From assembly GCF_022818495.1 (NCBI RefSeq), contig NZ_CP089291.1, positions 4,791,501 to 4,855,500 of the forward strand: a DNA stretch of 64,000 nt. The letters are read 5' to 3'. The stretch comes from Fodinisporobacter ferrooxydans. Lineage in GTDB: Bacteria > Bacillota > Bacilli > Tumebacillales > MYW30-H2. Positions 5,513-62,536 of the stretch are shown here, piece after piece. Both the position numbers and the translations under genes were made by a program. The notes under the pieces were generated by a model. The model was not told where the DNA came from. It saw only the letters and a list, made by a program, of their open reading frames with translations, and did no database searches. The number at the start of each line of letters is the position of its first letter. Position 1 is the first letter of the stretch.

Positions 5513-6355
5513 TTACGTTTGTCTTTGCAAAACATATGCGTGTACGGGCCCTTCCCGCCGCAGCATGCCTGTGATTCGGCAGCCGTTTTGAAAAGCTTCC
5601 GTACAGGCATGGCGCAAGGCGAAGCGCCATTCTTTCGCCAATTCCGGTTGCTGCTGCTTGATCGAGTGAATATTTACAGGAACGGGCAGCAAAAAGCCAT
5701 CCTCATTTCCTTGCAAACTTTGAGCGAAATCCTTTTGATAAAATCCCAAAGGCCTGGCAAACACCCCGCCAAGGGCAGGTTCAAAGTGTACCAATGAGGG
5801 ATAGGAATTCCATGCCGGATCCGCAAGACTCTGTCCTTGCGCCGCTTGCTCGACCGATTTTGCATGCAAGTCCCATTCCAAAAGAAAACGGTCAGTCGGC
5901 AAACCTTTGTTGATGGGATCGCTCATTTCCCCATAATATGCTTCGATATATGTATCCACATAGCCGCCCAGCTTCATGATATTCAGATAGGCATTGCGGG
6001 CTTCCAAAGGGTCAAATGTCCAGCGGATTTTCGTATACCCATGCGTCAGCGCCCATGTGCGCTGCTCAAATTTCAATTGTCTGCCAATCCCGAGATCCCT
6101 GTATGCCTGATCGATCCCCATCATATGCGAGAACAGGTAGATCTCGCCGTTATGAAATCCGGGAAATCCATAACAAAAGCCAACAACCACATCTTCGGCG
6201 AATGCTCCGATCACGACACCCCCATGATGAATGGCTGCAACCAATTGGGGCAGTGATGTTACAACATTGGCTGCCCATACCTGCTCCTGCAAATGTACAA
6301 TATCAGAAATCGCGGCAAGATCTGTTACAACTCGATAGGAAATATTCGTATTCAA
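5513..6355 (-). CDS. GNAT acyltransferase, probable D-amino-acid N-succinyltransferase
   Basis: GNAT-fold transferase of 280 residues. An upstream GTG would overlap the preceding gene, whereas TTG at 6355 lies 7 nt behind a GGAGG site, so it is preferred. A GNAT core is visible as VVGFCYGFPGF, the acyl-CoA loop region DLGIGRQLKFEQRTWAL, and MKLGGYVDTYIEAYYG. It sits 20 nt after an N-succinylamino-acid racemase/OSBS gene. In Geobacillus such a pair, with an M20 desuccinylase, has been described as an irreversible D- to L-amino-acid conversion route in which the GNAT enzyme succinylates the D-amino acid. The desuccinylase is not in this window. The succinyl donor and D-amino-acid acceptor are inferred from context. 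Confidence 0.75.
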   Translation of the reverse strand: MNTNISYRVVTDLAAISDIVHLQEQVWAANVVTSLPQLVAAIHHGGVVIGAFAEDVVVGFCYGFPGFHNGEIYLFSHMMGIDQAYRDLGIGRQLKFEQRTWALTHGYTKIRWTFDPLEARNAYLNIMKLGGYVDTYIEAYYGEMSDPINKGLPTDRFLLEWDLHAKSVEQAAQGQSLADPAWNSYPSLVHFEPALGGVFARPLGFYQKDFAQSLQGNEDGFLLPVPVNIHSIKQQQPELAKEWRFALRHACTEAFQNGCRITGMLRREGPVHAYVLQRQT

Positions 6356-28934: not shown

Positions 28935-29729
28935 CTATAAAATGGATGAACGCATTGTTGAAACAAAGCCTAGTCTTTTGGAAATAAGAATACTTTTTTC
29001 CTTGACAAGATTAGAGATATATTCTTGCTCATCATAGATTCTGTCGGTCGGTCCGGCTACACTGATTGCAGCAACAACATGACCAGTAAAATTAAAAATG
29101 GGGGCTGCAATTGAACTCAGGCCTTCATCATACTCTTCATAATTAAAGGCAATTCCTGTTTGCCTGATTTTACTAAGTTCCTCTAAAAATTGCTGACGAT
29201 CAATAATGGTAGTCTTTGTATACTGCTTCAACCCCTTTTGGCTGATGATTTTTTCAACATCTTCCAAAGAGAAATAAGCCATAATTGCTTTTCCAAGTCC
29301 AGTACAGTGTACGGGATTTCTTGTACCTAAATTCGCATTTGTTATAACGGATGACGTCCCTTCCGTCTTGTAAATATATACAATCTCTCCCTCATTAAAA
29401 ACTGCCAAAAATGAGGTTTGCTTTGTCAGAGCCACAAGATCCCTGGTATGTGGGATTGCGGCATCAACCAAATCAACATTTTTTAATCCCGACATTCCTA
29501 TTTCGATTGCTTTAAGACCAATAGAATATTTTTCCGTTATAGGATCTTGTTCTACAAATCCTGCCAGTACTAATGTATCCAATATTCTATGTGTTGTGCT
29601 TTTGGGTAAGCGAACAGCTTCAGCTAATTCTCTGACTCCTATCTTTCCATCAGCAAGCGAAAGACACTCTAATAAAAGTAAAGCCCTTTCCAACGTTGAG
29701 TTTGTTTTTAATTGTTCATCCTTTTGCAT
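28935..29729 (-). CDS. IclR-family transcriptional regulator 2
   Basis: 264 residues with the winged helix TLERALLLLECLSLADGKIGVRELAEAVRLPKSTTHRILDTL and the effector domain CTGLGKAIMAYFS, GLSSIAAPIFNFTGHVVAAISVAGP. It is clearly a paralogue of regulator 1 and stands at the outer end of the catabolic block as a single-gene unit with its own terminator. A large perfect dyad lies 100 nt upstream. Two IclR proteins in one locus may sense different intermediates or different sugars. Confidence 0.92.
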   Translation of the reverse strand: MQKDEQLKTNSTLERALLLLECLSLADGKIGVRELAEAVRLPKSTTHRILDTLVLAGFVEQDPITEKYSIGLKAIEIGMSGLKNVDLVDAAIPHTRDLVALTKQTSFLAVFNEGEIVYIYKTEGTSSVITNANLGTRNPVHCTGLGKAIMAYFSLEDVEKIISQKGLKQYTKTTIIDRQQFLEELSKIRQTGIAFNYEEYDEGLSSIAAPIFNFTGHVVAAISVAGPTDRIYDEQEYISNLVKEKSILISKRLGFVSTMRSSIL

Positions 29730-29828
29730 AATAAAACCTCATTTTAAAACATAATTTTATTTCACAACTATTTCTTATTCAATATGGATACTATTTACTA
29801 GTATAACTCACTCAAATGACTCATTCAA

Positions 29829-29855
29829 TATTATTGGGACAGTATCCCAATAATA
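29829..29855 (-). promoter_or_regulatory. Perfect 11-bp dyad upstream of iclR regulator 2
   Basis: TATTATTGGGA and TCCCAATAATA separated by CAGTA. The core TGGGA-N5-TCCCA has the same 15-bp geometry as IclR boxes but a different half-site from sites A-C, so regulator 2 probably binds here and regulator 1 at the CGGAA-type sites. Confidence 0.6.
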
Positions 29856-29970
29856 ATACTTCGTATACTAAATTATTTACTATAACATGTCAAGAGTATT
29901 GTACAACGAAACAGGTTCATTACTGCATGTAATCAAAGCAAGAAAATTTATTCGTTTAGAGATGGAACAC

Positions 29971-30010
29971 AAAAAGACCTGGGAAGATCGACTCTTCCGC
30001 AGGCCTTTTT
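29971..30010 (-). terminator. Intrinsic terminator of rocA
   Basis: Arms AAAAAGACCTGGGAAGA and TCTTCCGCAGGCCTTTTT (a few mismatches) with T-runs on both strands, 39 nt after the rocA stop. Possibly bidirectional. Confidence 0.8.
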
Positions 30011-30048
30011 GTCCATTTCCTTTTTCATTCCCTTGTTATGTTGCGGTC

Positions 30049-31593
30049 TTACAGCTTTTCACTCACGACTTTCGCTTGTGTGAACAAGAGCAGATAGTCG
30101 CGGCCGCCGGCTTTCGAGTCTGTGCCGGACATATTGAAGCCGCCGAACGGGTGCACGCCGACAAGAGCGCCTGTGCATTTGCGGTTGAAATACAAGTTGC
30201 CGCAATGCATGTGTGTGCGGGCGTACTCAAGGTGTTCCCGGTCATTGGAGAATACGGAACCGGTCAAACCGTATTCCGTGTTGTTGAACATGCGGATCGC
30301 TTCTTCAAATGTGTCCGCTTTGGAAATCGCCAAGACAGGTCCGAAAATCTCCTCTTGGAAAATTCGCGCATCTTCCGGGACATCCGCAATGACAGTCGGC
30401 TGAATATAGTAGCCATTGCCTTCTGCTTTGCCGCCGCCAGCCAAGAGACGGCCTTCTCCTTTGCCGATCTCGATGTAATTCAAAATCGACTCATATGCTT
30501 TTGCATCAATTACCGGACCCACCGCGAAGTTCTCATCCTGTGGTCCTGCTTGCAGCGCCTTTGTTTTTTCCACAACTTTTTCAACGATGACATCATAGAC
30601 GTCTTTATGAACAACCGCCCGGGATCCGGCCGAACATTTTTGGCCTTGGAAACCAAATGCAGACGCCACGATTGCACTTGCCGCTTCTTCCAGGTTTGCG
30701 TTGGCATCGACGACAATCCCGTCTTTTCCGCCCAACTCTCCAACGAAACGCTTGATCCAGATTTGCCCCGGCTGTGTCTTCGATGCCAATTCATTGATCC
30801 GCAATCCTACTTCACGGGAGCCTGTGAAAGAGATAAAACGAGTCTTGGGATGTTCGACAAGATAATCGCCAATCTCCGCGCCGGAGCCTGGAATAAAGTT
30901 GATCACGCCTTTTGGCAGACCGATTTGTTCCATCAGTTCCACAAACTTCGCTGCGATAATCGGCGTGGTGGAAGCCGGCTTCAATAAAACCGTGTTGCCC
31001 GATACCACCGCAGATGTTGTGATGCCAGCCATAATGGCCAACGGGAAATTCCATGGCGGAATAATCACGCCAACACCCAAAGGAATATAGGTCAAACGGT
31101 TTTCTTCGCCAAAAATCCGTGTCAACGGCTGTGGTTGTGCCAAGCGCAGCATTTCACGACCGTAAAACTCCAGGAAATCAATCGCTTCTGCAACGTCTGC
31201 ATCCGCTTCCGCCCAGTTCTTGCCCGCTTCATAGATCATCCATGCAGAAAATTCATATTTGCGCCGGCGCATTTCCGCTGCCGCTTTGAATAAATAGCCT
31301 GCGCGAGTCGCCGGATCTACCAGTTTCCAGCTTTCAAACGTTGCAAGCGCCGCCTGCATCGCCTGTTCAGCCAAATCGCGGCTTGCTGAAGACGCATATC
31401 CGACAACTTGATCCACGTTGCCAGGGTTGACGGATTTGATTTTCTTATCTGTTACAATCTTTTCGCCGCCGATCACGAGCGGATATTCTTTGCCGAATTG
31501 CTCTTTTACACTGGCTAATGCAGCTTCCATGGCCTTTTTATTGGCCGGATCAGAAAAATTGGTAAACGGTTCATTTTTGAATTCGACGATCAT
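30049..31593 (-). CDS. rocA: 1-pyrroline-5-carboxylate dehydrogenase
   Basis: Oxidises P5C/glutamate semialdehyde to glutamate, the second step of proline (and arginine) use. 514 residues, as in Bacillus RocA. Signatures: [10 protein letters not shown] near 170, [11 protein letters not shown] near 248, catalytic Glu in [11 protein letters not shown] near 285, catalytic Cys in [13 protein letters not shown] near 320 and EIFGPVLAI near 420. It follows the proline dehydrogenase gene on the same strand; a short palindromic element sits in the 126-bp gap between them. Long forward-strand open frames over this gene are shadows. Confidence 0.96.
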
Positions 31594-31629
31594 GTTTGTA
31601 TCCCCACTTTCTCTTGTTTTTATAGAAGC

Positions 31630-31698
31630 TGTTCAAAAAGCGGCAAAACCTCCATAGCGTCTTGCTTCACAAGGACTTTCTTCACCGCTTTTTGAACA
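31630..31698. mobile_element. MITE-like palindromic element, short copy (69 bp)
   Basis: Terminal inverted repeats TGTTCAAAAAGCGG and CCGCTTTTTGAACA (14 bp, perfect). The left 38 bp (CAAAAC, TCCA, GCG, TTGCTT in order) aligns with the left end of the copy at 54655-54799, and the right ends also match, so this looks like an internally deleted or rearranged copy. It could act as an RNA hairpin between putB and rocA. Confidence 0.7.
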
Positions 31699-31719
31699 CA
31701 TGCTGATAACGATAAAATC

Positions 31720-32640
31720 CTATTTTTTCACCATGCTCTTCATGACAAAACCTACATTGGCCGGACGTTCCGCCAACCTGCGCATGAAGTATCCGTACCA
31801 GTCATTCCCATATGGAACATAGACGCGCATTGTATACCCTTCATTGGCCAATTGCTGCTGCAACTGTGTGCGAATGCCGTACAGCATCTGAAATTCGAAT
31901 TGGTTTTTGGGAATGTTGTGCGTCTTTACAAACTGTTTGACATGCTTGATAATCGCTTCATCATGTGATGCGATCGCCGCATAATTCCCGTATTTTAAAT
32001 GCTTTTCAATAATTTTTATATAATTGCGATCTACATCTGCTTTCTCCGGAAACGCCACTTCTTTTGGTTCTTTATACGCGCCTTTGACAAGCCGCAAATT
32101 CAGATGGTGCGGATTCAGGTCATCAATGTCTTGCTCTGTCTTGTACAGATATGCCTGCAAAACGGTCCCTACATTGTCATAACCTTCCGCAATCAACTGT
32201 TTCAAAATATCGAGCGTCACTTCGTTATGTGCATAATCTTCCATATCGATCCGCACGAAGTTGTTGCACGCTTTCGCCGTATCCAGAATGCGGCGCATAT
32301 TGGCCACACACAAATCTTTGGATATATCCAACCCCAATTGAGTCATCTTCAATGAAAGATTGGACTTGACTCCAGCTTTTTGAATTTCTTTCAGCGTCAA
32401 CATGCAATAGTCGGCACTTTCATTCGCTTCCGCTTCCGTAAAGACAAATTCCCCCAGATGATCGAGTGTCGCGAGAATCCCCTTGCCGTTCAATTCCCTC
32501 ACGGCATCAATCGCGTCTTGAATCGTCACTCCGGCCACAAAACGGCTCGCCCCAAAACGCAATCCCCATTTTTTGGCCGCCGTGTTGGCTGTTTGATTTT
32601 TCGATAAGAACAGGAAAAAATCACGCAATGCCTGCTCCAT
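31720..32640 (-). CDS. putB: Proline dehydrogenase (PutB type)
   Basis: FAD-dependent oxidation of proline to P5C, passing electrons to quinone. ATG 32640 after GGGAAGGTGG gives 306 residues, the usual length of Gram-positive ProDH; the open frame upstream lacks a ribosome site. Features: SLKMTQLGLDIS near 120, VRIDMEDYAHNEVTLDI near 160, the lysine/arginine block RLVKGAYKEPKEVAF near 215, and the C-terminal YGNDWYGYFMRRLAERPANV with the substrate-binding RR. Upstream of rocA; the divergent NtrC-like gene is the likely activator. Confidence 0.94.
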   Translation of the reverse strand: MEQALRDFFLFLSKNQTANTAAKKWGLRFGASRFVAGVTIQDAIDAVRELNGKGILATLDHLGEFVFTEAEANESADYCMLTLKEIQKAGVKSNLSLKMTQLGLDISKDLCVANMRRILDTAKACNNFVRIDMEDYAHNEVTLDILKQLIAEGYDNVGTVLQAYLYKTEQDIDDLNPHHLNLRLVKGAYKEPKEVAFPEKADVDRNYIKIIEKHLKYGNYAAIASHDEAIIKHVKQFVKTHNIPKNQFEFQMLYGIRTQLQQQLANEGYTMRVYVPYGNDWYGYFMRRLAERPANVGFVMKSMVKK

Positions 32641-33030
32641 GGTTCCACCTTCCCGTTTCCCTTTTGCCCGCCGTCTTCCTTCCCCGTGCGAGCCTGTCAA
32701 TCCTTCTGATTCCTTGAACAAATACAGATGCCCGTTGCGCTGGAAATACCCAAATACAAACAATGCCAAATACAAACAGAAACCGGTTGCAGATCGGTGC
32801 TGCCGCTTACATATGTCTCTTACATATGTCCGCTCATGTATATGTGCAATTTTTGAACATCTGTATTTAAATTGTACATCATGAATTTATTTTTGTACAC
32901 TATTTAAACAAAAATGTTCAATTATTCATTTTTGTTTATACAGTTCAATGGTATGATACAATGAAAGAAAACTTGATCGTGCGAAACAACGAACAAACTA
33001 CGCTTGCAACCTGTTAAGGAGAATACAGCG
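32641..33030. other. Divergent promoter region putB / activator
   Basis: 390-bp gap, AT-rich toward the activator. A repeated TTACATATGTC (32809-32833) and the pair ACAAAAATG/ATTTTTGT around 32910-32936 are visible. I looked for a sigma-54 promoter (TGGCAC-N5-TTGC) reading to putB and found only an off-spaced partial match near 32790-32808. No gene is seen. Confidence 0.4.
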
Positions 33031-34776
33031 ATGATTGATAAAATTCCAATGGAAACAAACATACTGGTGATTGAATCCTCATTTCGCTCCGGATTCCACC
33101 ATGAACACTTGTTCAGTGAAATAAAAACATCAGCAGCCAAGATTGTCGTATTGCAAGAAGACCATCAATATATTGGATTTATGTCCGTTTCAGATGATCC
33201 GTTGCATGGTTCATTGCCAAATGATCTAACACGATTCCCCTGGAAACCCTTACAAGCAGTCTCCTCCGACGATATTCAAACATTGAATTTTGAACCGGAT
33301 GCGGATTTGCTGGTGATTCGGACATCCGGAGAGATCGAAGGATTTTTAAGCAAACAAGCTGTTGCAAATTTCCTGTTTGACCAATTGAAAACAACCCAGT
33401 CGTTTCTGGATACGCTGCTTGATTCTGTCAACGATGCGGTCACATGTGTCGATCGGGAAGGTACCGTTTTTTATTGGAACCGTGTTGCCGAAGAGTTTTA
33501 TGGTGTACCTGGCGAGTTGATTATCGGCAAGCGAATTGGCGACTTTTTTTCACAAGGATCGATCATGCTGTTCAACATTCTTGATGAAGGGCGCCCGATC
33601 CGACATGTGTATCACCATCCCCGCCCGGATAAACATGTATTGATCAATGCAGCACCTGTATACGATGGGCAAAAGAAATTGATTGGAGCAGTAGCTACTG
33701 AGCAAGACATTTCACAGATCGTCAAAGTCAGTGAAGAATTGATGAATCGAAATTCCAGCGAGCACATGCCGGACGAAACAAGCTCCGATCCTTTCGGAAA
33801 GATAAAAGGCTGCAGCCATGTGATTCAAGCTGCGGTTCGGCAAGCGAAACAATTGGCAAACGTACCGATTCCCATCCTGATAACAGGGGAAAAAGGTGTT
33901 GGCAAGCGCCTTTTGGCACAGGCCATACATGAACAAATGACAGATCACGGAGAAGCCTGCCCGTTTCTTGAAATCAACGCGGCCACTCTGCCTCCTTCCC
34001 TTATTGAAAGCGAACTGTTCGGGTATCAGGGAAACCTGTTTGGCGGTGAAACACAAGCAAAACCGGGAAAAATTGAACTTGCTGCAGGTGGAAGTTTGCT
34101 TTTGGACGAGGTAGATGATTTGGCAGAAGATTTACAAATCAAACTGGCTCATCTTTTGGAGCACGGCATCTATTATCGCGTCGGCAGCCATACGCCCATG
34201 CCGCTGCAGACAAAGCTGATGTTTACAACTGTACAGCCGCTGAAAGACTTATTGACAACTGGCCGATTCCGGGAAGATTTGTATTATCAATTGGAACGTG
34301 CGGCGATTCATCTGCCTCCTTTGCGGGAACGGCCGGAGGATATTCTGGAGTTAAGTCAATCGTTCCTGCAACGATTTGCCCAACAATATCATAAACCGAT
34401 ACCGCTTTTGACACCGGAAGTCATCGCGGCTCTGACTACCTATCACTGGCCTGGCAATGTACGACAATTGCGCAATACAATTGAACGGTTGGTGATTTTT
34501 GCAACGGATGAGACAATTGCATTGGATCAGCTTCCTCCTTCCATTCCGTTCAAAACATTGGATCACTTGGAGCAGGAATTCGAAGACAAATACAAACAGC
34601 CAACTCCAAATTCACAAGATACAGGAGTTGCGCTGCAAGATATGGAACGCAGCGCAATTCTGCAGGCATTGCAAAAAACGGCCGGCAACAAAGCGGCGGC
34701 CGCCAAAGAATTGGGAATTTCAAGAGGGACATTGTACGCAAAGTTGCGGCAACTCAATATTCAGGACGATATTTAA
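33031..34776 (+). CDS. NtrC-family PAS/AAA+ regulator with degenerate GAFTGA loop
   Basis: 581 residues from ATG 33031 behind AAGGAG. An unassigned N-terminal domain (about 1-125) is followed by a PAS domain (about 125-235, LLDSVNDAVTCVDREGTVFYWNRVAEEFYG), an AAA+ domain and a Fis-type helix-turn-helix (NKAAAAKELGISRGTLYAKLRQL). Walker A is GEKGVGK near 286 and Walker B LLLDEVDD with D359/E360; the arginine fingers in FREDLYYQLERAAIHLPPLRERPEDI are present. The sigma-54 contact loop, normally GAFTGA, reads NLFGGE at 335-340. Divergent from putB-rocA, it probably controls proline use, perhaps not through sigma-54. It ends overlapping glpD by 4 nt. Confidence 0.88.
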   Translation: MIDKIPMETNILVIESSFRSGFHHEHLFSEIKTSAAKIVVLQEDHQYIGFMSVSDDPLHGSLPNDLTRFPWKPLQAVSSDDIQTLNFEPDADLLVIRTSGEIEGFLSKQAVANFLFDQLKTTQSFLDTLLDSVNDAVTCVDREGTVFYWNRVAEEFYGVPGELIIGKRIGDFFSQGSIMLFNILDEGRPIRHVYHHPRPDKHVLINAAPVYDGQKKLIGAVATEQDISQIVKVSEELMNRNSSEHMPDETSSDPFGKIKGCSHVIQAAVRQAKQLANVPIPILITGEKGVGKRLLAQAIHEQMTDHGEACPFLEINAATLPPSLIESELFGYQGNLFGGETQAKPGKIELAAGGSLLLDEVDDLAEDLQIKLAHLLEHGIYYRVGSHTPMPLQTKLMFTTVQPLKDLLTTGRFREDLYYQLERAAIHLPPLRERPEDILELSQSFLQRFAQQYHKPIPLLTPEVIAALTTYHWPGNVRQLRNTIERLVIFATDETIALDQLPPSIPFKTLDHLEQEFEDKYKQPTPNSQDTGVALQDMERSAILQALQKTAGNKAAAAKELGISRGTLYAKLRQLNIQDDI

Positions 34777-36431
34777 ACAGCTTCTGTCACATCGCGGATT
34801 CGCTGTTCCAATTCATCTGTATACGCTTGTGTTGTCCCTTCATTCCATTGGAAGATTTGCGCCATGTACTTGATAACTCCTGCTTTCCATTGATGCACCC
34901 ACGGAATATCAAAGTACATGCTGGCCGTTCGGCGAATAAAATAATCGCTCGGCGTCAAACACATCTCGTGTTCGATTCCATAGATGAGAGAAGCGAATAC
35001 TTCCAGTGATAAACCGGATATCTCCAAATCTTGTTTGCGATTGCGGATGATGTCATACAGGACATCGATATTCGTACCATAGCGTTTGCTGAGTTTTTCC
35101 GCTTCTTCTTTGCTTAACCCGAGTTGAAGACCATCATTCGTCTTTCTCTCAACAAACGTTTTGAAGTTTCGTGAACCGCCAAAATCTCCGCCTGACAGCC
35201 GAACCGTATCTGTCGTACAGGATGGATACGGTTTGCCTTTCTCTGCTGCAAGGTCTGCTGTCACAATATCCACAACTTTTTCCGCCATCTTTCGATAGCC
35301 GGTCAATTTCCCCCCGGCGATCGTAATCAAGCCGCTGGCAGATAGGAAAACTTCGTCTTTTCGTGAAATTTCCGAAGGGGATTTTCCTTCTTCATGAATC
35401 AATGGCCGTACACCTGTCCAACTGGATTCCACATCCTCCGGTGTCAATCGCACGGATGGAAACATAAAATTGATTGCATTTACAAGATACTCCAAGTCCC
35501 CTTTAGTCATCCGCGGATGCAACAGGTCTTGGTGGTAATCGGTATCTGTTGTGCCGATATATGTTTTGCCATCCCGCGGAACGGCGAACACCATGCGTCC
35601 ATCCGGAACATCAAAATAAATGGGATTGTGCAGCGGGAACCGCTTGCCGTCGACGACAATATGGACGCCTTTCGTATGGTGAATGTATTTGCCTTTCTTG
35701 GAGCCGTCCATTTCCCGCAATTCATCTACCCACGGCCCAGTTGCATTCACGATTTTCTTGGCATACACGGCAAACGTTTGATCTGTCTGAACATCCCGTA
35801 CTTTGACTCCAATCACTTTCCCGTCACGATATAGCAAATGTTCCGCTTTCGCATACGTAAGGGCGGTTGTTCCACGATGAACGGCTTCCTTCAGCACTTC
35901 CAGCGTCAACCGCGCATCATCCGTACGGTACTCCACATAACATCCGGCGCCTTTCAAACCATCCTTGCGCAACAATGGCTCTTTCTGCAGTGTCTGCTCA
36001 ATGTTTAACATCGAGCGGCGCTCGCTGCGTTTTACGCCAGCCAAATAATCATACACAAACAATCCCACAGATGTGGCCAATTTGCCGAATGTACCGCCTT
36101 CGATCAGCGGCAGCAACATCCACTGTGGCTCAGTGACATGTGGGGCGTTCTCGTACACAATCGCCCGCTCTTTGCCGACCTCTGCGACCAACCTGATTTC
36201 CAATTGTTTTAAATAGCGCAAACCGCCATGAACAAGCTTGGTGGAACGGTTGGATGTACCAGCGGCAAAATCCTGCATCTCGATCAGCGCTGTCTGCACA
36301 CCTCTTGTTTGCGCATCCAGTGCGATTCCTGCTCCTGTAATCCCGCCGCCGATAATTAACAAATCGTATTCATTCGCAGCAAGTGCGGTGATTGCCTCTG
36401 TACGTTGCAAAGCTGAAAAACCTTTTGTCAT
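34773..36431 (-). CDS. glpD: Glycerol-3-phosphate dehydrogenase, aerobic FAD enzyme
   Basis: 552 residues from ATG 36431, 8 nt after AAGGAG. It oxidises sn-glycerol-3-phosphate to DHAP at the membrane face and reduces quinone. FAD motif LLIIGGGITGAGIALDAQTRG near 25, then GTSNRSTKLVHGGLRYL, KGVHIVVD, VFAVPRDGKTYIGTTDTDY and TGVRPLI...RKDEVF. A leader terminator preceded by the same 14-nt motif found before glpK points to GlpP antitermination. The last codons overlap the convergent regulator gene by 4 nt at a shared TTAA, with no room for a terminator between them. Confidence 0.96.
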   Translation of the reverse strand: MTKGFSALQRTEAITALAANEYDLLIIGGGITGAGIALDAQTRGVQTALIEMQDFAAGTSNRSTKLVHGGLRYLKQLEIRLVAEVGKERAIVYENAPHVTEPQWMLLPLIEGGTFGKLATSVGLFVYDYLAGVKRSERRSMLNIEQTLQKEPLLRKDGLKGAGCYVEYRTDDARLTLEVLKEAVHRGTTALTYAKAEHLLYRDGKVIGVKVRDVQTDQTFAVYAKKIVNATGPWVDELREMDGSKKGKYIHHTKGVHIVVDGKRFPLHNPIYFDVPDGRMVFAVPRDGKTYIGTTDTDYHQDLLHPRMTKGDLEYLVNAINFMFPSVRLTPEDVESSWTGVRPLIHEEGKSPSEISRKDEVFLSASGLITIAGGKLTGYRKMAEKVVDIVTADLAAEKGKPYPSCTTDTVRLSGGDFGGSRNFKTFVERKTNDGLQLGLSKEEAEKLSKRYGTNIDVLYDIIRNRKQDLEISGLSLEVFASLIYGIEHEMCLTPSDYFIRRTASMYFDIPWVHQWKAGVIKYMAQIFQWNEGTTQAYTDELEQRIRDVTEAV

Positions 36432-36454
36432 ATCTTCCACTCCTTAGTAAAATG

Positions 36455-36517
36455 AAAAAACCACGAATAGACATGTTTCCTTTTTCAAATACGTGGAAAC
36501 ACATCTGCGTGGTTTTT
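36455..36517 (-). terminator. Leader terminator of glpD
   Basis: On the minus strand AACCACG...TGTTTCC, loop, GGAAACA...CGTGGTTTTTT, ending about 25 nt before the glpD start. A terminator inside a 5' leader is the classical target of GlpP-dependent antitermination. Confidence 0.8.
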
Positions 36518-36532
36518 CTCCGTTTCTCGACC

Positions 36533-36546
36533 AATCTATGAACTTG
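36533..36546 (-). promoter_or_regulatory. Putative GlpP recognition motif, glpD leader
   Basis: CAAGTTCATAGATT on the minus strand, just upstream of the leader terminator. The identical 14-mer is found at the equivalent place in the glpK leader (38184-38197). Confidence 0.65.
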
Positions 36547-36556
36547 GCAATTCTAT

Positions 36557-36585
36557 TCAAATTTCTCTGGTTTATAGAAATTTGA
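36557..36585 (-). other. 10-bp hairpin between glpK and glpD
   Basis: TCAAATTTCT and AGAAATTTGA with a 9-nt loop, 14 nt after the glpK stop. It has no T-tract, so it is more likely an mRNA processing or stability hairpin than a terminator. Confidence 0.45.
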
Positions 36586-36599
36586 GACATCTTCCGTTT

Positions 36600-38108
<1,509 letters not shown>

Positions 38109-38373: not shown

Positions 38374-38940
38374 CTATTTTCGAATGATCTTGCTTTTCAA
38401 AAGCACGTTATACGATGTGCTCACAGCTGTAACACCCGCTTCGAGAACTGTACGGATATCGTCCATGGTGCGAATAAATCCGCCGGCTATGATCGGAATG
38501 CCTGTCCGCTCATTGATTTCCTTGGCAATCCCAGGGATAATTCCAGGAAGCACTTCAATATAATCGGGTGCGCAAGAATCGATCATCCGATAAGCGGTTT
38601 CCAGTGCTTGTGAGTCTAATAAAAACAGTCTTGTGATGGCAATCAATTTATGCTTCTTGGCAACGGCAATGACAGCGGGATGTGTGGAAATAAGCCCGGC
38701 CGGTTTGATCACCTGACACAAAAATTGGGCAGCATGTTCGTCATGTTTCAATCCTTTAATCATATCTGCATGCAGCAGCACTTTTTTCTTATGTTCTTTT
38801 GCCATTCGGACGAGATGATGCAATTGGGCAAGAGGGGATTCCAACAAAATTACGTATTCATACTGCAAATTCAAGACTTCTTCAAAGTCTTTCACTTTCC
38901 GTGCAGCCGGTATGATCTGCTGTTGCTGAAAATGTGTCAA
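38374..38940 (-). CDS. glpP: Glycerol-3-phosphate-responsive antiterminator
   Basis: RNA-binding antiterminator that, with glycerol-3-phosphate, lets transcription pass the leader terminators of glp genes. TTG 38940, 7 nt after GGAAGGCGGGA, gives 188 residues and aligns with known GlpP starts; a longer GTG start at 38979 has no ribosome site. Features: IIPAARKVKDFEEVL, LLHADMIKGLKHDEHAAQFLCQVIKPAGLIST near 75, and the phosphate-site block YIEVLPGIIPGI...IPIIAGGFIRTMDDIRTVLEAGVTAVSTS. Lies upstream of glpK in the same direction. Confidence 0.9.
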   Translation of the reverse strand: MTHFQQQQIIPAARKVKDFEEVLNLQYEYVILLESPLAQLHHLVRMAKEHKKKVLLHADMIKGLKHDEHAAQFLCQVIKPAGLISTHPAVIAVAKKHKLIAITRLFLLDSQALETAYRMIDSCAPDYIEVLPGIIPGIAKEINERTGIPIIAGGFIRTMDDIRTVLEAGVTAVSTSYNVLLKSKIIRK

Positions 38941-38979
38941 AAAAATTCCCGCCTTCCCGCCAAACTGTAGCAATTTCAC

Positions 38980-51374: not shown

Positions 51375-52319
51375 TCATCTGCCTGCCGATTTGCGGGAGA
51401 GAATGACGACGGTGGCCAAAATGCAAAACGCCCCGATCCACGCAATCAATCCCAGTCGTACATGGAGAAACATCATGGCAACAAAAGCGGACGACAGAGG
51501 TTCCGCACAGCCGAGCAAGCTTGTTTCCGAAGGCGTGATGTATCGCAAACTTTCCAAATATAAGTAAAATGCAACAAGCGTTCCAAACAAAACCACAAAT
51601 GTGACAAGCTCCAAAGCCCAATATGACCATGTACCTTGCAGACGCCAGGGATGTGTGACAAAACTCAACAGCACGCTGCCAATCAACATGGCCCAGCCCA
51701 CAATAATTGCCGAACCGTATTGCTTGATCAGTTTTTGCGGAAACATCGTATAAAAAGCGAGTGCCAAAGCTGAGATCAGTCCCCAACTGACAGCGCCCGG
51801 TGAGATGCTTATGGCATTCCACCGTCCATCCGTAATGAGCAGACACGTCCCGACAAACGCCAATACGACTGCCAAGCTCTCCCAGCGATTGGGCATTCTG
51901 CGCAAGCGCAGTGCCAGATAGAGCGTAATGGCGACAGGTCCCAAATATTGCAGGATCGTTGCAGTTGCCGCATTGCTCAAAGCAATCGTGACAAAAAACG
52001 AGTATTGTACGCCAATCAGTCCAATGACAGCAAATACGACAAGATACAAGACGTCTTTCGGCCGTTTCCATATGACAAACGTCTTTTGCGTCCCTGCGCC
52101 AATCATCGAAAACAACACGAGAATCAGTCCAGACAAGCCCATGCGCACCGTTACCAACCATGCAGGTTGAAATCCGTTATTTTGAAACAATACTTGTGCT
52201 GCCGTTCCCGATACTCCCCATAGAATCGCACCAATCAAGACCATGATCATGCCTTTCCATCGTTCCAGTTTCAGGGTTGGCTGATACTCGATACCTGTGC
52301 TTGTTTGTGGCTGTGCCAT
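51375..52319 (-). CDS. EamA/DMT-family transporter
   Basis: 314 residues from ATG 52319 after GGAGAGG. Ten hydrophobic helices in two EamA repeats: KGMIMVLIGAILWGVSGTAAQVLF...; SNAATATILQYLGPVAITLYLALRLRR; GAVSWGLISALALAFYTMFPQKL; ITPSETSLLGCAEPLSSAFVAMMFL. Likely exports or exchanges a metabolite or amino acid; substrate unknown. It runs toward the proBA leader on the same strand, with the T-box following its stop, so it is not part of proBA control. Confidence 0.9.
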   Translation of the reverse strand: MAQPQTSTGIEYQPTLKLERWKGMIMVLIGAILWGVSGTAAQVLFQNNGFQPAWLVTVRMGLSGLILVLFSMIGAGTQKTFVIWKRPKDVLYLVVFAVIGLIGVQYSFFVTIALSNAATATILQYLGPVAITLYLALRLRRMPNRWESLAVVLAFVGTCLLITDGRWNAISISPGAVSWGLISALALAFYTMFPQKLIKQYGSAIIVGWAMLIGSVLLSFVTHPWRLQGTWSYWALELVTFVVLFGTLVAFYLYLESLRYITPSETSLLGCAEPLSSAFVAMMFLHVRLGLIAWIGAFCILATVVILSRKSAGR

Positions 52320-62020: not shown

Positions 62021-62536
62021 ATGGAACCAAAAGTTTGCAAAGATTCTCGCGTTACCCAAACCATCTTGGTTTTTCCGAATGAATTGAATCATTATCAGAC
62101 GATGTTTGGTGGGAGCCTGATGGCTCATATCGATATGGTAGCGACACTTTCGGCGATCCGTCATTCACGGACTACATCTGTTACCGCATCGACCGACTCT
62201 GTGGACTTCCTATGTCCGATCACACAAAATGATTCCGTTTGTCTGGAGTCCTATGTTACATGGACGGGTAAAAGTTCAATGGAAGTGTTCGTAAAAGTGG
62301 TGGCGGAAGATTTATTTACAGGAGAGCGCAGAATTGCAACAACGTCATTTTTGACGTTCGTGGCTCTCGATAAAAATAAAAAACCCGTACAAATTCCGCA
62401 AGTCATTCCGGAAACAGAAGAGGAAAAAAAATTGCATGAAACAGCATTAGATCGTGCAAAAATGCGGAAACTGCGAAAAGAGGAAAGCAAAAATCTTGCC
62501 AGTCATTTGACGACAAAAAAATACTGGGACAATTAG
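62021..62536 (+). CDS. Acyl-CoA thioesterase, hot-dog fold
   Basis: 171 residues from ATG 62021 after TTGGAGTG. Single hot-dog domain with NHYQTMFGGSLMAHIDMVATLSAIRHS near 20-48 and CPITQNDSVCLESYVTWTGKSSMEVFVKV near 65-95, then a polar tail. Hydrolyses acyl-CoA; like YkhA of Bacillus. Divergent from fnr. Ends at a strong terminator. Confidence 0.9.
   Translation: MEPKVCKDSRVTQTILVFPNELNHYQTMFGGSLMAHIDMVATLSAIRHSRTTSVTASTDSVDFLCPITQNDSVCLESYVTWTGKSSMEVFVKVVAEDLFTGERRIATTSFLTFVALDKNKKPVQIPQVIPETEEEKKLHETALDRAKMRKLRKEESKNLASHLTTKKYWDN

Follow-up and report, generated by a model that had tools for sequence, protein, structure and literature searches.

A PrdR-like regulator with a defective sigma-54 contact loop beside putB of Fodinisporobacter ferrooxydans and its probable independence from sigma-54

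Introduction

How does a protein built like a sigma-54 activator control its target once the loop contacting sigma-54 has been lost? The question is raised by a gene in the 64,000-nucleotide stretch of the Fodinisporobacter ferrooxydans genome analysed here (the window), which lies divergently from putB and a rocA-type dehydrogenase gene and whose product carries NLFGGE in place of GAFTGA. In Bacilli, sigma-54 control has been predicted for a set of genes that includes proline dehydrogenase (PMC12316311). A count of 2011 already gave about 110 homologues that deviate in GAFTGA (PMC3162934). An earlier note on this DNA had proposed a sigma-54-independent regulator, possibly a repressor, derived from the RocR type. 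Here we followed up this proposal by comparing the regulator, its loop and the promoters around it with those of related genomes.

Results

The regulator has lost the contact loop and part of its ATPase site

The regulator ORF was intact and its AAA+ domain scored 153 bits against Sigma54_activat (PF00158; cut-off 20.2). The best named family was PrdR (NF041552), with 408.8 bits against a cut-off of 795, while the score for TyrR (NF008085) was 223.7 bits (cut-off 576). Judged by these profile scores, the nearest named family is PrdR, at a value far under its cut-off, and not the RocR first suggested. Scans of genome contigs and viral contigs queried with the whole or partial regulator returned no relatives; a genome-contig scan queried with an alignment did recover them. 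Elsewhere in the window, a GlpP-like antiterminator candidate (38374-38979) was identified by eye beside glpK-/glpD-like genes (34773-38096).

Table 1. Features of the regulator-putB-rocA region, in window coordinates.
Feature	Position	Strand	Remarks
rocA-type L-glutamate gamma-semialdehyde dehydrogenase	30049..31593	-	above NCBIfam cut-off
putB, proline dehydrogenase	31720..32640	-	306 aa; divergent from regulator
Putative operator O1, TGTTCAAAAATTGCACA	32843..32859	-	13/14 palindrome match, 11 nt after -10
Putative sigma-A promoter of putB, TGTACA-17-TACAAT	32871..32899	-	consensus match only
Weaker palindrome O2, TGTTTAAATAGTGTACA	32894..32910	-	11/14; overlaps -35; at least 11 in about 7% of shuffles
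Alternative start of regulator CDS, TTG	33004
Regulator CDS (loop-defective, PrdR-like)	33031..34776	+	581 aa; PAS + Sigma54_activat + AAA_lid_14 + HTH_8
PAS domain, presumed sensor	33403..33717	+	residues about 125-229; PAS_9, PAS_4, PAS matches
Walker A, GEKGVGK	33886..33906	+	intact (K292)
NLFGGE replacing GAFTGA	34033..34050	+	residues 335-340; AACCTGTTTGGCGGTGAA; one residue shorter than canonical
Walker B, D359/E360	34105..34110	+	intact; none of the other 19 aligned loop-defective sequences has the Asp
Sensor I Asn replaced by Val401	34231..34233	+	N in 88/89 canonical
Arginine-finger segment	34270..34290	+	R414 (R162-equivalent) kept; Q420 replaces R168-equivalent
HTH_8 (Fis-type) DNA-binding domain	34633..34752	+	SRGTLY recognition segment conserved

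The residue numbers given earlier for NLFGGE proved right, within an interval that includes the loop. When the regulator (YQGNLF-GGETQAKPGK) was aligned with the canonical sequence (YQGGAFTGADRKGKPGK), its loop had one residue fewer, and F-GGE stood where four canonical homologues of the same order read FTGA or FTSA. In this alignment the change is thus a deletion combined with substitutions. Among 89 canonical-loop homologues, the Thr/Ser position was T or S in all 89, the first Gly was present in all 89 and the last Ala in 88; because these positions are near-invariant, NLFGGE is no chance variation. The regulator thus carries neither Thr nor Ser at position 4 of GAFTGA, as had been claimed, and is an EBP homologue with a disrupted GAFTGA of the TyrR/HupR/DhaR kind.

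The ATPase site was found mostly preserved. We take R414 and Q420 to be the equivalents of PspF R162 and R168, an assignment made by alignment and from the residue numbering of PspF. Walker A, Walker B, R414, the switch residue N316 and the sensor II residue R478 were retained, and the sensor I Asn and the R168-equivalent, an Arg in 89/89 canonical-loop sequences, were lost. R162 and R168 are the named R-finger residues of PspF (PMC4132715). The earlier statement that Walker A, Walker B and the arginine fingers are intact therefore holds for both Walker motifs and for one finger; the second finger and, in addition, the sensor I Asn are gone.

Loop and promoter change together

The -24/-12 matrix used here follows the published consensus and was not fitted to these data. 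In 32600-33060 its top score was 6.6, inside the putB coding start, against a shuffled 99% level of 11.0, and no -24/-12 promoter was found before putB or rocA, in line with the previous observation that a well-spaced one was missing before putB. A window-wide search for -24/-12 sites with up to 3 mismatches gave 356 matches vs 315 by chance, a slight excess only; matrix scores of 15-16 occurred at 51570-51586, 5865-5881 and 62486-62502, all on the minus strand.

The comparison with regulators beside putB or rocA in relatives, recommended in the earlier note, was carried out on 398 genomes of the class, which were searched for the regulator and for proline dehydrogenase; 111 regions were then fetched and read for loops, motifs and promoters. 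Where a canonical-loop regulator lay nearby, putB or rocA almost always had a near-consensus -24/-12 promoter 46-200 bases before the start, with scores typically of 14-20, against the same shuffled level; beside defective-loop regulators no site stood at that distance. In the non-redundant putB set (66 loci), with a limit of 200 bases and a score threshold (13) that was set once the scores were known, such a promoter preceded putB or rocA at 48 of the 52 loci with a canonical-loop regulator nearby vs none of the 14 defective-loop loci, window included. The four canonical loci lacking it may have regulators that control other genes.

In the putB tree (INDEPENDENCE), the window putB fell into a starred clade whose 20 rows include 14 canonical-linked members, and paired with the sigma-54-type locus of genome G004 (support 97/77). 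About five changes between canonical- and defective-linked putB were counted, with three contrasts on starred (well-supported) branches, and promoter state followed the expected direction in nearly all pairings. With 3-5 independent switches a tree-corrected sign test is unable to reach 0.05, and the strength of the covariation comes from its uniformity and from genomes that keep such regulators in the absence of detectable sigma-54. There were four of these (G057, G118, G304 and G375), which gave no match for two sigma-54 domains, yet retained defective-loop put regulators. The window genome itself has sigma-54 (two domains detected) and many EBPs with an ordinary loop; two of its proteins were PrdR-like at E < 1e-75, the window regulator and a paralogue (in locus L057), both loop-defective. 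Taken across genomes, the loop/promoter covariation and the four relatives strongly support the sigma-54 independence that had been proposed for the regulator.

A single clade of loop-defective regulators

In a regulator tree built without the loop, Walker B and arginine-finger columns, all 20 loop-defective sequences formed one clade (support 100/98), within which the window regulator was sister to liv-linked and other put-linked sequences. We also considered that the order's own put regulator might have lost its loop recently, by a point change: forcing the window regulator to group with the canonical put regulators of its order and relatives was rejected (p-AU 0.014), a test in which long branches may attract each other. 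These trees support a descent of the regulator from an older loop-defective clade and not directly from the order's canonical put regulator, and their simplest reading would be one old loss with later takeovers of put operons. Members of the clade persist in many families and have as neighbours either put genes or an operon for a liv-type transporter. Named relatives with defective loops include Paenibacillus and Domibacillus species, and the F-GGE loop is common to the liv-linked proteins of L054 and L055.

The paralogue of the window genome (G000:C1:706445-707818) occupies positions 8446-9819 of L057 (G000:C1:698000-716000). Like its relatives in L054, L055 and L056, from three genomes of the order, it adjoins a branched-chain-amino-acid-type ABC transporter operon; in these liv loci, the neighbours of the regulator were recognised by eye from their protein sequences. 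Sensor II loss was also seen among paralogues. In family f2 of the same order (G001, G009, G011; L162-L164) putB was present, and no PrdR-like regulator was found in the 11-kb region around it.

A candidate operator downstream of a predicted sigma-A promoter

The putative sigma-A promoter of putB has a -35 matching 4/6 positions, and scans for such promoters are weak alone (6 found vs 3.5 expected). It implies a 5' leader of about 220 nt, in which a near-repeat, ACATATGTAAG..ACATATGTAAG, lies at 32790-32830; Rfam gave no leader RNA in 29500-36500. A 17-bp palindrome was first spotted by eye after the -10 of the liv and window promoters and then scored. O1 was its best match in the window, and a score of 13 was reached in one of 5000 shuffles of the intergenic region. 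TTGAACA/TGTTCAA half-sites were enriched before putB in the 14 defective-loop regions (23 vs 1.6 expected) and in 68 other regions (35 vs 6.3 expected).

When the best sigma-A promoter and the best palindrome were chosen separately, they lay 11 nt apart at the window putB and at L054, L055 and L056; the liv promoter of L057 had a weaker palindrome at 11 nt and the top-scoring one at 41. A palindrome was found 15-44 nt downstream of the -10 at L059, L069, L147, L156-158 and two Paenibacillus loci; none was convincing at L159, L160 and L166. A composite promoter-operator pattern, designed partly from the putB and liv sites it recovers, matched exactly at two places in the 4.86 Mb of the window genome, one at putB and the other at the liv operon, the rest carrying 2 mismatches. 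A 16-bp palindrome pattern was uninformative genome-wide (4 matches on both strands vs 8 in controls). The predicted layout, conserved among these loci, would be that of a regulated sigma-70-type promoter. A palindrome that spans about +5 to +21 would be placed to block RNA polymerase, and we therefore prefer repression; the repressor that the earlier note had held possible gains support from the position of O1 and from a layout common to four liv promoters.

We also considered that the regulator might be a sigma-54-independent activator or dual regulator, TyrR-like, acting on the sigma-A putB promoter from sites at or upstream of the -35. The weaker palindrome O2 overlaps a -35 that itself departs from consensus, and at the f8 loci, which have related regulators, the predicted promoter has the palindrome on its upstream side (in 4/5 at -91 to -103, counted from the end of the -10), an arrangement that looks like activation; moreover, the NtrC of Caulobacter, devoid of GAFTGA, both activates and represses (PMC12421884, PMC10274813). 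However, at the window putB the strongest site follows the -10, and so it does in the liv loci, f11, f29, f31 and the two Paenibacillus loci; we consider activation rather unlikely here, though a case to be taken seriously.

Discussion

The sequences of this locus contain a lost and shortened loop, no -24/-12 promoter, a covariation of the two across genomes and a promoter layout like that of the paralogue-linked liv promoters. From these we think it probable that a PrdR-like sigma-54 activator gave rise to a sigma-54-independent regulator that would bind the TGTTCAA-N3-TTGAACA-type palindrome just downstream of the sigma-A promoter and would control the divergent putB-rocA operon, most likely by repression. 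Relief of repression could come from a proline-related signal sensed by the PAS domain, the ligand being a guess. ATP binding is of importance to some NtrC proteins without GAFTGA (PMC10274813), and the ATP-binding residues still present here may likewise help to assemble oligomers and not to remodel sigma-54.

It is very improbable that the regulator still activates sigma-54 RNA polymerase, either via an unrecognised promoter or despite its loop. The genome has sigma-54, the ATPase site is mostly intact, and some sigma-54 genes rose in DNA-binding mutants of the GAFTGA-less Caulobacter NtrC (PMC12421884), but the Thr/Ser is lost from a shortened loop, no -24/-12 promoter precedes putB or rocA at any defective-loop locus, and sigma-54 is undetectable in some relatives with such regulators. 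Equally doubtful is a decaying, non-functional remnant with putB expressed constitutively, as might be suggested by the loss of Walker B, arginine fingers and sensor II in paralogues and of the sensor I Asn and one arginine finger here, against which stand an unbroken ORF in which PAS, Walker A/B and HTH are conserved, a palindrome retained at putB, and a clade persisting across many families.

Extending the preferred reading, sigma-54-independent control of putB-rocA, to the whole group, we give about even chances to an old PrdR-like clade of Bacilli that lost sigma-54 contact once and took over put and liv-type operons several times, each time with a change from -24/-12 to a sigma-A promoter plus TGTTCAA-type palindrome; its members would be repressors (site after the -10) or activators (site upstream) by subgroup, and the window protein, with most of its ATPase site, a living intermediate. 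Escapees from sigma-54 are known singly, and a joint change of loop, ATPase and promoter is rarely visible. At this one operon, related genomes show three states with matching promoters: a canonical regulator, one whose loop is lost while the ATPase site mostly remains, and one whose ATPase is fully lost. The sequence in which ATP-driven sigma-54 activation gives way to ordinary sigma-A control thereby becomes testable. Annotation as 'sigma-54-dependent regulator' is misleading in this group.

The general kind is already known from TyrR, HupR, DhaR and, as a recent GAFTGA-less case, Caulobacter NtrC (PMC12421884); the literature searched yielded no put/liv clade with promoters changed to match, which is weak evidence, as subscription papers mostly fell outside it. 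TyrR, DhaR and HupR are GAFTGA-defective and sigma-70-dependent (PMC3162934), as the earlier note had said of TyrR/HupR-type members without the Thr. TyrR of E. coli, which works with sigma-70, resembles the window regulator as an EBP relative concerned with amino-acid metabolism whose GAFTGA is defective (PMC3162934); unlike TyrR, the window regulator belongs to the PrdR-like clade of Bacilli and has other targets. GAFTGA is likewise lost from HupR, DhaR, VpsR and the NtrC of Rhodobacter and Caulobacter, whose known or presumed sites of action are sigma-70 promoters (PMC3162934, PMC10274813, PMC12421884); they differ in regulatory domains and targets and have no put/liv link, and the loop deletions of the two NtrC proteins are larger. 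PrdR and the canonical put-linked sigma-54 activators of Bacilli share with the window regulator the PAS-AAA+-HTH_8 domain order, the position divergent from putB and 41-45% identity, whereas the window regulator is without GAFTGA, one arginine finger, the sensor I Asn and a -24/-12 promoter. Counterparts from its own clade are the L057 paralogue and its relatives in L054, L055 and L056, with the same promoter-operator layout; unlike the window regulator, they adjoin a liv-type operon and have lost Walker B and the arginine fingers.
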